A stretch of DNA of 64,000 bases from Holdemania massiliensis AP2 (GCF_000327285.1 NZ_HE998567.1:1213911-1277910); one strand, 5' to 3'; shown: positions 49,659-63,143, numbered from the stretch's first letter. Made by a program: numbers and translations. Notes: generated from the letters alone by a model not told the origin.

Positions 49659-50398
49659 CTAGTTCTCTTCTAATACTTTCCAATATCCTGATTTTTTAGA
49701 ACCAATTCTTTCAATATATCCATTACTCTTCAAAAACGCTAAATTCTTATCACTGCTGTGTCACTAATGTTTAATAACTTTGATAATTCTGCAGTTGTTA
49801 TGTTAGCGTTATCTCTTATTTCTTTTATGATAAATTGTCTTCGGAGATTCAACTTAGCTTTCTTATTCCCACCTAAATTATCTAATCGGTTTACTTTTTC
49901 AAAAGGTATAGATGCAGTAATCGAATTTTCTCTAAACGAAAAAGCGTCTTTACCGTACATTTCTATGATCTTAGGGACGCCACGTCCCGATTTTTCACTA
50001 ATATGTAACTGAAGAAAGATTTCTGATAATTTTTCATTTGCGGGAATCGATTCTCCCATATAAAAACCTTCCATCGTTTGTGCAGGTGCAAGTGTTCCTC
50101 GAGACAATATCTCTATTCTATCTGGGAAAACTGAAATCATCGGTTCATTTCTTTCGATCCACTTATTGTGAAGGACTGCATTAATTATAGCTTCACGAAA
50201 TGCTTTATTATCAAATAAGACAACTTCTTTTCGTTCTACTACTCTGTCTGTTTCATCAGTTTGTATAATGTTTAATACATCACCATAACGTAAAAGTTCA
50301 TCCTAGCTATATAACAAACAATTATTTCCAAACTCTCGTACAGAGAAAAGATTTCCGCCTGTGGGTCTGTGCTTTATTTGATAATACTTTATGAAGCT
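49659..50398 (-). pseudogene. Decayed AlbA-type ATP-binding regulator
   Basis: Minus-strand remnant of a protein with the C-terminal layout of AlbA_2/ATP-binding transcriptional regulators: FREAIINAVLHNKW (HATPase-like helix), FPDRIEILSRGTL, SEKSGRGVPKI, and a winged-helix end (ITTAELSKLLNISDTAV). Three lesions: the N-terminal AlbA domain is missing, an in-frame TAG interrupts at about 50303-50305 (between LLYS and DELLRYGD), and a frameshift near 49745 moves the tail (LAFLKSNGYIERIG...YWKV) to another frame that stops at 49659. Non-functional. It lies just after the res gene. Confidence 0.75.
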
Positions 50399-53300
50399 TA
50401 AATGGAGCTTATAATATTCAATAAGCTTTGATAACTATCTACATCGTGATACTTAACGTTACTTGTTGACATTTCATTGAATAATTTTTTCGCACAAGAT
50501 ATTTTAGCCTGTTCGATAGGTCTAAGATTTAAGCTGTCCATTGTTCCTTTGGTTTCTGCAATAAAGAAAATATGTTTAACAGTTCCTTCATAGAAAGCAA
50601 TTGCCCAGTCTGGTGAATAATTTCCAACCGGAGTAGGTATTTGGAATGTTCTTGGAAGTTTTGCATATACACATACCTCATCAGCTGCGTCTAAATCTTC
50701 TGCAAATTTTCTTTCAATACTCTTTTCAGCAGAACCATCTGTAAATACATAATCTTGAATAGCTTTCTTCGCAAGGAATGCTTTATCAAAACTTTGAGTA
50801 TTCTTTTCAGCTGTAAAGATAGTGCTGTCATACTCTCCTTCAATTGGATCATATGAAATATGCTCTACAATCATCGTTGCTTTTTGTTCCTTGATAAGCT
50901 TAATTACCTTTGAAATAAATTCTTCCGGATTATTTCTAAACATATATAATTTCTCAGGATTAAGCCCTTGGAGGATTGTTGCAACAGTCTTACGAGTAAG
51001 TACTGTTCCTTCGGCAACCTTACCAATAAGATCGTATTTAATTTGACTTGTTTCAGCGTGTTTTAAAGTCTGTGTTCTTGCCTTTTCTCCACTGAAAGAA
51101 GCTCCACGACCAACTTCGTATTCGTCCATTTTATCTTTCTGACGACCTATTGTAGCTGTATATTGAAGCTCAGACACAAAAAGCTTTTCATTGATATGGT
51201 CTATTGATTTTTTAATAAGTTCATTACTGTCAAAATCTACAGTATAAGCATATTTACGATTGATTTGTTTCCATAATGCTTGAAATTCCTTTTTAGCGAA
51301 ATTCTCATTCAAAGGATTTTCCTTAACCTTTGATTCATGTCCATCTGTGAACATATCTTTAAGAACACTATCATCGTAAACAGACTGAATAAGAGTATGA
51401 ATTCCTTCAGTCATAGGTTGTAATTCTTCCGGTAACGGTGCAAGAGTACCTGTCAAAACATCATTACGATATTTATTCGTAACCTTACGCTTCATATCTA
51501 CATAACCATTTGAAATCAAATAGAACTCGATTGTATTAGCTACTGCGTCATCAATAAGTACAGGTTCATCATTTACCTTAACATACTTGCCACTGAAGTA
51601 TTCGCTTGTCGCAACTGTCGGTCTGTCGTAAAGTACAGTCTTAATGTCGCTTTGTAAATCTGTTACGAAATTCTTATAACTTTCACTTGCAACAACAGTA
51701 AGCATATTGATGTCATGTACTGAATCGCCACAAGTCTGTACGTCCATTCTGTTACCATGTTGATTTACGCAAAGACGAAGTCCACGACCTACTTCTTGTC
51801 GTTTTGCTGTGCTGTTATCAGAATGTTTCAAAGTACAGATTTGGAATACATTTGGGTTATCCCAACCTTCTCGCAGAGCAGAGTGAGAGAAAATAAATCT
51901 CGTTGGTTCTTCAAATGATAATAGTCTTTCCTTATTTTTTAAGATAAGGTCATAGGCTGAAATGTCATCTGAGAACTCACTACCACGCTTCAAGGCACTA
52001 TCAACGCTTCTTCCGGTCTTTTTATCAATGCTGAAATATCCTTTGTGTACCTGACTTACATCACTGCAAGTTGATTTTAGGTATCTTTGGTACGGAGTAT
52101 CAAACATTGTAATGTATTGATTTAGGACGCTTATATACTCCTGCTCAAACATTTTTCCGTATTCTCCCAAAAGCTCATTTCCATTTTCATCGTACTGACG
52201 ATATTTTGCAACTTCATCAATGAAGAATAGGGAAAGGGATTTAATTCCCATATTAAAGAGTTTTTCTTCTTTTTCAAAGTGAGAAAGAATTGTTTCTCTA
52301 ATTTGAATACGACGCATATCATCTTCTGACACATCACCGTTTACTTCACCGGCTTTAATTACTTCTCCATTAGTAAAAGTAACCGTACCACAAAGCGGAT
52401 CTATTTCAGAAATGGTATATCCCTTGTATTGTTCCATTTCCTGTGAAAGATAGTATAAATCATCTCCAACATTACAATTACGAGTTTCTCGGTTAATTGA
52501 CTTGTTATAACCAATTTCAAGTTCAATTCTTGCCATTGGTGGCTTCTTAGAAGATAAAACAATCTGTTCTAAATACAAGTAACTATCTGTTCCTCTAAAG
52601 TTCTTAACCTCAAATCCTTTTACTTCAATCTTCTTAACCAAACGCTTATTAAATGCGTCAAGAGCGTCAAGCACATAAACAATATTATGCTGTTTTGCAT
52701 GAGTTGCTGAATAGTTCAAACTGAACAAAGGATTGAAGTTTTTCAATGCTTTCTGCGTTACATCGCCACCCATTTTTTGTGGCTCATCAAGAATGATAAT
52801 TGGTCTATTCGCTGCAATTACATCAATCGGACGACGAGAACCAAATTCATCACGCTTTGAATAAATGATACGGGATTCTTTACTGCGTCCGCCTTCTTTG
52901 AGTGAAGCTGCAAAAGCTTGTGTATTAATAATCATTACATTGATACCGCTACTTTGTGAGAAGTTGTCAAGCTGATTAAGATTTGAACTATTATAGATAA
53001 AGAATCTTGCTTTCTTTCCGTAATGCTCCATAAAGTGGTCAGATGTAATTTCAAAAGATTTCTTTACTCCTTCACGAATCGCAATGCTTGGCACTACAAC
53101 AATAAATTTGCTCCAACCATATTTCTTATTAAGCTCAAACATCGTCTTGATATATACATAGGTTTTACCTGTTCCGGTTTCCATTTCAATATCAAGAGAG
53201 CAACAACCCAAGTCCTTGTTAAGCTCTTTTGAGAGTTTAATATTGCTTTGACTTTGTAAGTCTTGAATATTTTTTAATATCTGTTCATCTAAAAGCTCCA

Positions 53301-53511
53301 TAGCTTCATTTTTATATCCGGTATCATCAAATGGATCAATAGCATCATTTGAACCGTCAACAGACATGAACGAAGCTTGTTGTGGATTATTGTATTTTCC
53401 TAAATCTCGTATATAACTGATACCATCGTGAAAGCCTTGTCCGTTAAACACTTTCACGACCGCATCTACAGCATCGGTTTGATACTGTTGTATTTTAAAA
53501 TTAATTTTCAC
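50398..53511 (-). CDS. Type III restriction enzyme Res subunit (helicase-nuclease)
   Basis: 1037 residues. Superfamily 2 helicase: DIEMETGTGKTYVYIKTMFEL (Walker A), KFIVVVPSIAIREG, ILDEPQKMGG (motif II as DEPQ), FSLNYSATHAK, FIFSHSALREGWDNPNVFQICTL and QEVGRGLRLCVN (motif VI). The C-terminus has PDWAIAF...FIAETKGTM, a PD-(D/E)xK-type nuclease with Glu and Lys. This is the R subunit that translocates and cuts when Mod finds unmethylated sites. Start is GTG after GGGAGG, five bases beyond the AbiJ-like gene. Intact, though its Mod partner is frameshifted. Confidence 0.93.
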   Translation of the reverse strand: MKINFKIQQYQTDAVDAVVKVFNGQGFHDGISYIRDLGKYNNPQQASFMSVDGSNDAIDPFDDTGYKNEAMELLDEQILKNIQDLQSQSNIKLSKELNKDLGCCSLDIEMETGTGKTYVYIKTMFELNKKYGWSKFIVVVPSIAIREGVKKSFEITSDHFMEHYGKKARFFIYNSSNLNQLDNFSQSSGINVMIINTQAFAASLKEGGRSKESRIIYSKRDEFGSRRPIDVIAANRPIIILDEPQKMGGDVTQKALKNFNPLFSLNYSATHAKQHNIVYVLDALDAFNKRLVKKIEVKGFEVKNFRGTDSYLYLEQIVLSSKKPPMARIELEIGYNKSINRETRNCNVGDDLYYLSQEMEQYKGYTISEIDPLCGTVTFTNGEVIKAGEVNGDVSEDDMRRIQIRETILSHFEKEEKLFNMGIKSLSLFFIDEVAKYRQYDENGNELLGEYGKMFEQEYISVLNQYITMFDTPYQRYLKSTCSDVSQVHKGYFSIDKKTGRSVDSALKRGSEFSDDISAYDLILKNKERLLSFEEPTRFIFSHSALREGWDNPNVFQICTLKHSDNSTAKRQEVGRGLRLCVNQHGNRMDVQTCGDSVHDINMLTVVASESYKNFVTDLQSDIKTVLYDRPTVATSEYFSGKYVKVNDEPVLIDDAVANTIEFYLISNGYVDMKRKVTNKYRNDVLTGTLAPLPEELQPMTEGIHTLIQSVYDDSVLKDMFTDGHESKVKENPLNENFAKKEFQALWKQINRKYAYTVDFDSNELIKKSIDHINEKLFVSELQYTATIGRQKDKMDEYEVGRGASFSGEKARTQTLKHAETSQIKYDLIGKVAEGTVLTRKTVATILQGLNPEKLYMFRNNPEEFISKVIKLIKEQKATMIVEHISYDPIEGEYDSTIFTAEKNTQSFDKAFLAKKAIQDYVFTDGSAEKSIERKFAEDLDAADEVCVYAKLPRTFQIPTPVGNYSPDWAIAFYEGTVKHIFFIAETKGTMDSLNLRPIEQAKISCAKKLFNEMSTSNVKYHDVDSYQSLLNIISSI

Positions 53512-62894: not shown

Positions 62895-62921
62895 AAAAAA
62901 ATCCTCCATCACTGAATCTTG

Positions 62922-63143
62922 CTAATTAGATTCTTTATTGTCTCCATCTACGACTTCCATAATATCGTCAAAGGTGCAATCGAGAGCTATACATATTCTA
63001 ACAAGTACATCTGTTGTAATATTATTTCCTTTGTTTAATTTGCTAAGTGTATATGAACTAATATTGGCTTTTTCAGCTAAATCTTTTTTCTTCATATCTC
63101 TATCTATCAAAAGTTTCCACAGTTTTTTATAGCTAATATTCAT
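62922..63143 (-). CDS. XRE-family regulator of the defence operon
   Basis: 73 residues, essentially one helix-turn-helix: LIDRDMKKKDLAEKANISSYTLSKLNKGN. First gene of the operon, with AAAGG before its ATG. It probably represses its own promoter through a palindrome over the -10 and so controls the whole island. Short Cro/C.-protein-like proteins often do this for restriction-modification genes. Confidence 0.85.
   Translation of the reverse strand: MNISYKKLWKLLIDRDMKKKDLAEKANISSYTLSKLNKGNNITTDVLVRICIALDCTFDDIMEVVDGDNKESN

Follow-up and report, generated by a model that had tools for sequence, protein, structure and literature searches.

A type III restriction–modification operon of Holdemania massiliensis with a conserved SNF2–DUF4391–Mod–Res core and exchangeable cargo genes

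A 64,000-nucleotide stretch of the Holdemania massiliensis AP2 genome (GCF_000327285.1, NZ_HE998567.1:1213911-1277910; here called the window) carries a type III restriction–modification (R-M) locus that holds further genes besides mod and res. Nine genes, running from an XRE regulator to res, lie on the minus strand at 50398-63143 (Table 1) and look like a single operon, with intergenic spacing of 0-26 bp and one 50-bp overlap between the zinc-ribbon gene and the gene for a 276-aa protein. The spacers measure 9 bp (XRE-SNF2) and 9 bp (SNF2-zinc ribbon) and, after the overlap, 10, 26, 0, 0 and 5 bp to res. A preliminary description of this DNA had listed nine co-directional, close-packed genes and supposed a single transcript. 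All the genes that it named are present, on one strand and with this tight spacing, as a single operon would have them, but mod consists of two open reading frames (ORFs). It had also taken the SNF2 and DUF4391 genes for a second helicase module added onto a plain type III system. These two genes proved instead to be regular companions of mod and res, and a conserved four-gene core (PLD-fold/SNF2, DUF4391, Mod and Res, in this order) with plug-in cargo is the better description of the operon.

Table 1. Features of the operon in the window, in the direction of the genes
Feature	Position	Strand	Matches and motifs
Promoter-like site, TTGAAA-16-TATAAT, upstream of XRE	63195..63222	-	11/12 consensus positions
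XRE/HTH_26 regulator	62922..63143	-	Pfam PF13443 2.7e-20
Core gene 1, SNF2 translocase with PLD-fold head, 1083 aa	59661..62912	-	Helicase_C 9.6e-15; SNF2 4e-12
Slot S1 cargo, zinc-ribbon protein, PDC-M14A	59196..59651	-	PADLOC PDC-M14A 7.9e-54; three CxxC
Slot S1 cargo, PDC-M14B, 276 aa from first GTG	58415..59245	-	PADLOC PDC-M14B 1.4e-96
Core gene 2, DUF4391	57802..58404	-	Pfam PF14335 1.2e-29
Slot S2 cargo, HEPN-like protein, 370 aa	56663..57775	-	RNGVSH (Rx4H) at residues 331-336
Core gene 3, mod, first ORF, ends at frameshift	55634..56662	-	DPPY; PADLOC MTase_III positions 2-340/621, 4.7e-137
Core gene 3, mod, second ORF, other frame	54807..55715	-	FSGS; MTase_III positions 322-620/621, 2.6e-99
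Slot S3 cargo, AbiJ-NTD3/NTD4 protein	53517..54806	-	AbiJ_NTD3 1.8e-52; AbiJ_NTD4 3.8e-6; PADLOC PDC-S32 1.6e-50
Core gene 4, res, SF2 (superfamily 2) motor and PD-(D/E)XK	50398..53511	-	REase_III 2.7e-289; RE_endonuc 7.3e-30

At least 582 relatives emerged when genome contigs were scanned with a SNF2 profile, and we mapped the best 80 together with nine family genomes, yielding 89 loci. The best 80 span Bacillota, Bacteroidota, Pseudomonadota, Planctomycetota, Fibrobacter, Spirochaetes and one metagenome-assembled genome labelled archaeon. DUF4391 followed SNF2 in 84 of the 89 loci, and Mod and then Res followed wherever the contig was long enough. Among the five exceptions (L035, L037, L074, L084 and L089) are a probable frameshift (L035), loci cut by contig ends and unusual neighbourhoods; among the 84, L044 has an opposite-strand gene inserted and only a remnant of DUF4391. 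A DUF4391 search of 146 family genomes returned 10 matches, each of them next to a SNF2 relative and running on into Mod. With Res as the query, 10 relatives were clearly accompanied by SNF2-DUF4391, 1 was not, 2 were ambiguous, and in the rest the contig ended too soon. Dozens of genomes from scattered branches of the phylogeny have the core genes in this order, far beyond what chance would give; the conserved neighbourhood that the preliminary description had supposed for Bacillota exists and extends well beyond them. Plasmids also carry the bare four-gene core, in E. coli (for example pLAO18, NZ_OP242248.1 3154-12215), Listeria and Enterococcus. We did not find the four-gene architecture in the open literature searched, which is not proof that it is undescribed, and DUF4391 appeared there in a single paper, on an unrelated matter. 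Two otherwise bare operons contain related opposite-strand genes of ∼200 aa (L139 13141-13734; L140 6844-7497). In L142 (G405) the core is readable only across several in-frame TGA stops, which suggests either that TGA is translated as an amino acid in the host or that the copy has decayed.

The SNF2 protein matches the PADLOC model C3a139 ‘HKD+Snf2’ (7.5e-126). Its motor motifs were complete in 60/60 proteins compared, as were the methylase motifs of Mod (60/60) and the GxGKT, DEP and PD..ExK motifs of Res (60/60). The earlier label PLD-SNF2 holds for the fold but not for the catalytic residues: the N-terminus was predicted to be PLD-like, with SauUSI (6.4e-5) and NgoAVII R (3.8e-4) as the closest Foldseek matches (predicted local distance difference test (pLDDT) of the head model 74.7; TM-scores modest), but the HxK(x4)D motif had no match anywhere in the protein and no His was conserved across 30 SNF2 N-termini. 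With HxK missing from the predicted fold, the head probably binds rather than cuts. Among the core proteins, Res alone has its nuclease motif intact. It matches EcoP15I Res (4zcf, 2e-72) and combines, with motifs intact, the SF2 ATPase and the PD-(D/E)XK nuclease by which type III systems are recognised. Membership of DISARM was rejected, as the ten ORFs include no DUF1998 (DrmB) and no separate DrmC, and the DrmA/DrmD matches correspond to the SNF2 motor domain and fall below the NCBIfam cut-off. BREX was likewise rejected, no PglZ, BrxC or PglX family being present among the ten ORFs.

The AF2 model of DUF4391 (pLDDT 93) shows an alpha/beta domain that carries a long helical hairpin; a fold search against the PDB gave no match (best E 0.16), and we therefore assign it no enzymatic role. 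The divergence matrices of SNF2, DUF4391, Mod and Res correlated above all 500 permutations. Their partial correlations form a chain, SNF2-DUF4391-Res-Mod, with values of 0.40 for SNF2-DUF4391, 0.45 for DUF4391-Res and 0.59 for Res-Mod and ∼0.05 for the remaining pairs. Bootstrap intervals excluded zero for the three linked pairs only, and dropping the variable half of Mod altered the values little. DUF4391 divergence tracks Res more closely than the adjoining Mod, which is not expected from gene adjacency alone. This chain suggests that DUF4391 is probably a coupling subunit between the SNF2 motor and the restriction complex. Alternatively, plain type III Mod-Res and SNF2-DUF4391 could be two separate defence systems that travel together, with extra defence genes piled in. 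The partial correlations of SNF2 with Mod and Res, near zero given DUF4391, would fit this explanation, as would the resemblance of Mod and Res to EcoP15I, a two-gene system, and the Res relative L134, which has neither companion gene. We nevertheless consider two systems unlikely, as SNF2-DUF4391 leads only into Mod-Res in loci with room, the order is fixed across phyla despite cargo between the genes, and the divergence of DUF4391 is closer to that of Res than to that of its neighbour Mod.

Cargo genes occupy three positions in the core: between SNF2 and DUF4391 (S1, filled in 10/84 loci), between DUF4391 and Mod (S2, 37/75) and between Mod and Res (S3, 32/69). Cargo was present in 45/69 complete loci and absent from 24/69; all three slots were filled in 7, and this is the pattern of the window too. 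The cargo ORFs were co-directional with the operon in 91 of 92 cases (the other being opposite), with a median gap of 3 bp. Recognised cargo belongs mostly to Abi, toxin or nuclease families; the families seen are Abi_C, DUF1016/YhcG, RhuM, AlbA_2, Fic, Zeta, YoeB, SduA, GmrSD_N and HEPN, further AAA_13 (PrrC-like), an AAA_21 + DUF3226 pair, PDDEXK_3, 23S-IVP and others; one S2 gene matches PrrC in PADLOC. The abortive-infection or toxin genes that the preliminary description had seen embedded here were thus found repeatedly within SNF2-DUF4391-Mod-Res loci. R-M-linked HEPN, Fic/Doc and RhuM genes have been proposed as a second defence line by analogy with PrrC (PMC3710099; PrrC is reviewed in PMC12707154). 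The RNA-cutting back-up of restriction that the preliminary description had inferred, and which may operate here, was thus already put forward for R-M-linked HEPN genes. Back-up toxins within R-M operons are an older idea; what would be new is this variant of type III R-M.

It is possible, if less probable, that the cargo genes have no functional tie to restriction and are passengers, to which the operon offers a promoter and gaps where they can settle safely. Turnover of cargo is fast, and one family can sit in more than one slot (Abi_C, for instance, in both S1 and S3). Some cargo resembles complete toxin-antitoxin pairs that work alone (the YoeB toxin and its neighbour in L083), and the cargo-free loci and the relatives of M14A-M14B and of the HEPN-like gene found without R-M (see below) are also in agreement with passengers. 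However, nearly every recognised cargo gene is of a defence or toxin type, runs with the operon and is packed closely, and PrrC is a tested precedent of functional coupling (PMC3710099).

In the window operon, the ORF previously given as 264 residues has 276 aa when read from the first GTG and matches PDC-M14B; PDC-M14 turned up nowhere in the open literature searched. The HEPN-like protein (56663-57775) does have the Rx4H motif ascribed to it, RNGVSH at residue 331, but has no match among the models of Pfam, PADLOC and NCBIfam. The AbiJ protein has an NTD3 match (1.8e-52), and its C-terminal part carries RIRHH, which is not a canonical Rx4-6H. The M14A-M14B pair occurs without R-M in L034, a Lysinibacillus plasmid has an M14B relative as the latter of two neighbouring small genes, away from R-M, and a weak relative of the HEPN-like gene lies in a Cytobacillus prophage-like region, again away from R-M genes. 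Judged from these placements, the pair and the HEPN-like gene may work alone. Class-wide searches found M14B in 4 genomes and the HEPN-like gene in 1, own genome included, and these genes therefore cannot be core; viral contigs held no relatives of the HEPN-like gene.

The preliminary description had expected the zinc-ribbon, 264-residue, HEPN-like and AbiJ genes to recur in the same order. They generally do not: they are exchangeable cargo, and M14A, M14B and the HEPN-like gene are shared only with G053, a genome of the same family and another genus (locus L024), where Abi_C stands in place of AbiJ and the HEPN-like copy is 93% identical. DNA identity between the two operons was ∼79-88% over SNF2 and 94-96% over M14A-M14B-DUF4391-HEPN, fell to 51-58% in the Mod target-recognition region and to 50-58% between AbiJ and Abi_C, and was ∼77-88% over most of Res. 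As identity drops at these two places and is high elsewhere, Mod specificity and the S3 cargo have been exchanged within an otherwise shared operon. Homology to G053 runs from ∼63248 to ∼50411, and its limits mark the extent of the island.

The two overlapping mod ORFs jointly span positions 2-620 of a single 621-position MTase_III profile, and reading of the junction sequence placed the frame change near 55680, inside a short A run. With regard to programmed frameshifting, the zero frame of the junction has no canonical X_XXY_YYZ heptamer, although the A run allows slippage. A sequencing error or a reversible variant could account for the frame change, through which the window copy may not restrict or may be switched off. 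A single intact Mod ORF is present in 69/76 of the relatives' loci with Mod, which, together with the possible error or reversibility and with the other eight genes being intact and their motor and nuclease motifs complete, makes it rather unlikely that the island in this genome is a decaying, non-functional locus, even though the frameshift itself and a truncated gene past Res would point to decay. Mod is also in two pieces in L066, L070, L112 and L027; as these splits sit at differing places, decay or variation of Mod seems to recur among relatives. Elsewhere, two Mod genes in a row, or a doubled Mod-Res (L036), stand behind one SNF2-DUF4391 (L036 14004-18320; L043 13899-17649; L085 4945-8865), which might give two specificities.

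Upstream, a similar XRE gene lies 5′ of SNF2 in several relatives. Promoter-like sites are no commoner in the region than in shuffles (chance level), and position is the sole support for the site before XRE, which is suggestive of the operon promoter. No RNA families were found within 47000-64000. The operon directly follows a 23S rRNA uridine methyltransferase gene (63340-63999; RlmD/TrmA type, judged from sequence), as it does in G053 (L024 13307-14911), and similar methyltransferase genes lie near the operon in G039 and G089 (L028 3942-5231; L027 16428-17741), which suggests a recurrent insertion place. Just past Res, a truncated C-terminal piece of an AlbA_2/RecG-C type protein (49739-50140, minus strand; HATPase_c_4 1.7e-11) is probably a decayed cargo gene.

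On balance, we lean towards an extended type III R-M system in which a second motor is coupled through DUF4391 and swappable back-up effectors sit between the core genes. Mod would methylate host sites and guide Res to unmethylated phage DNA; type III enzymes characteristically cleave, with ATP, at two unmethylated sites in inverse orientation. The SNF2 translocase, with its catalytically degenerate PLD-fold head, would be a second ATP-driven motor tied to Mod-Res by the small adaptor DUF4391; it would probably load on or track incoming DNA, and thereby aid long-range Res activation or strip DNA-bound proteins. The abortive-infection, toxin and nuclease genes would be swapped in and out at the three positions, most likely kept silent and acting once restriction is inhibited or overwhelmed, like PrrC beside EcoPrrI. 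The sequences themselves show the fixed core, the variable co-directional cargo, the intact motor and nuclease motifs, the exchange between two genera and the frameshift in the window mod; that the proteins are physically coupled, what the second motor does and how the cargo is triggered are our inferences. Several observations weigh against this interpretation: L134, whose Res is 66% identical, stands without SNF2-DUF4391, and Res may therefore not need them; divergence correlations can stem from shared transfer history instead of contact; ∼40% of the cargo genes have no Pfam family; and mod is frameshifted in the window. More tentatively, such operons could form a separate, widespread type III class in which SNF2 with its dead PLD head is obligatory, DUF4391 joins it to Mod-Res, and the operon is a chassis with three standard slots for core-controlled effectors. 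The usual teaching is that type III systems need two genes. Should a large group that spans phyla routinely employ a second DNA motor together with an adaptor of unmatched fold, the rules by which type III enzymes find and cut DNA would need retesting, which the bare four-gene copies on E. coli plasmids make practical. The slots would also be a systematic source of unknown effectors, S2 especially, as it holds many genes without a family.

Finally, we compared the operon with known systems. Four window proteins match the PADLOC candidates C3a139 (HKD+Snf2), PDC-M14A/B and PDC-S32, but each model covers one protein, and in the literature searched we found no description of the whole arrangement that includes DUF4391, Mod and Res. 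Like DISARM class 1 (DrmD, DrmMI), the operon places a SNF2 motor beside an adenine methylase, and its SNF2 weakly matches DrmD models (157 bits versus a cut-off of 610), but it is without DrmA, DrmB and DrmC and its nuclease is Res. SauUSI and NgoAVII R share the predicted PLD-like fold, joined in SauUSI to an SF2 motor as in the window protein; SauUSI acts against methylated DNA, whereas the window SNF2 is without the HKD residues and works beside a methylase. The closest likeness in mod and res is to EcoP15I and EcoP1I: Res and, through the intact G053 homologue of the split window mod, Mod match the EcoP15I subunits (4zcf), and DPPY, SF2 and PD-(D/E)XK are present. EcoP15I consists of Mod and Res only, however, while the operon adds two near-invariant proteins, SNF2 with its PLD-fold head and DUF4391, and intergenic cargo. 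With EcoPrrI-PrrC, a type IC R-M system with an embedded anticodon nuclease, the operon shares an RNase/toxin-type gene inside R-M genes, and it differs in being type III, with three slots and many unrelated cargo families.

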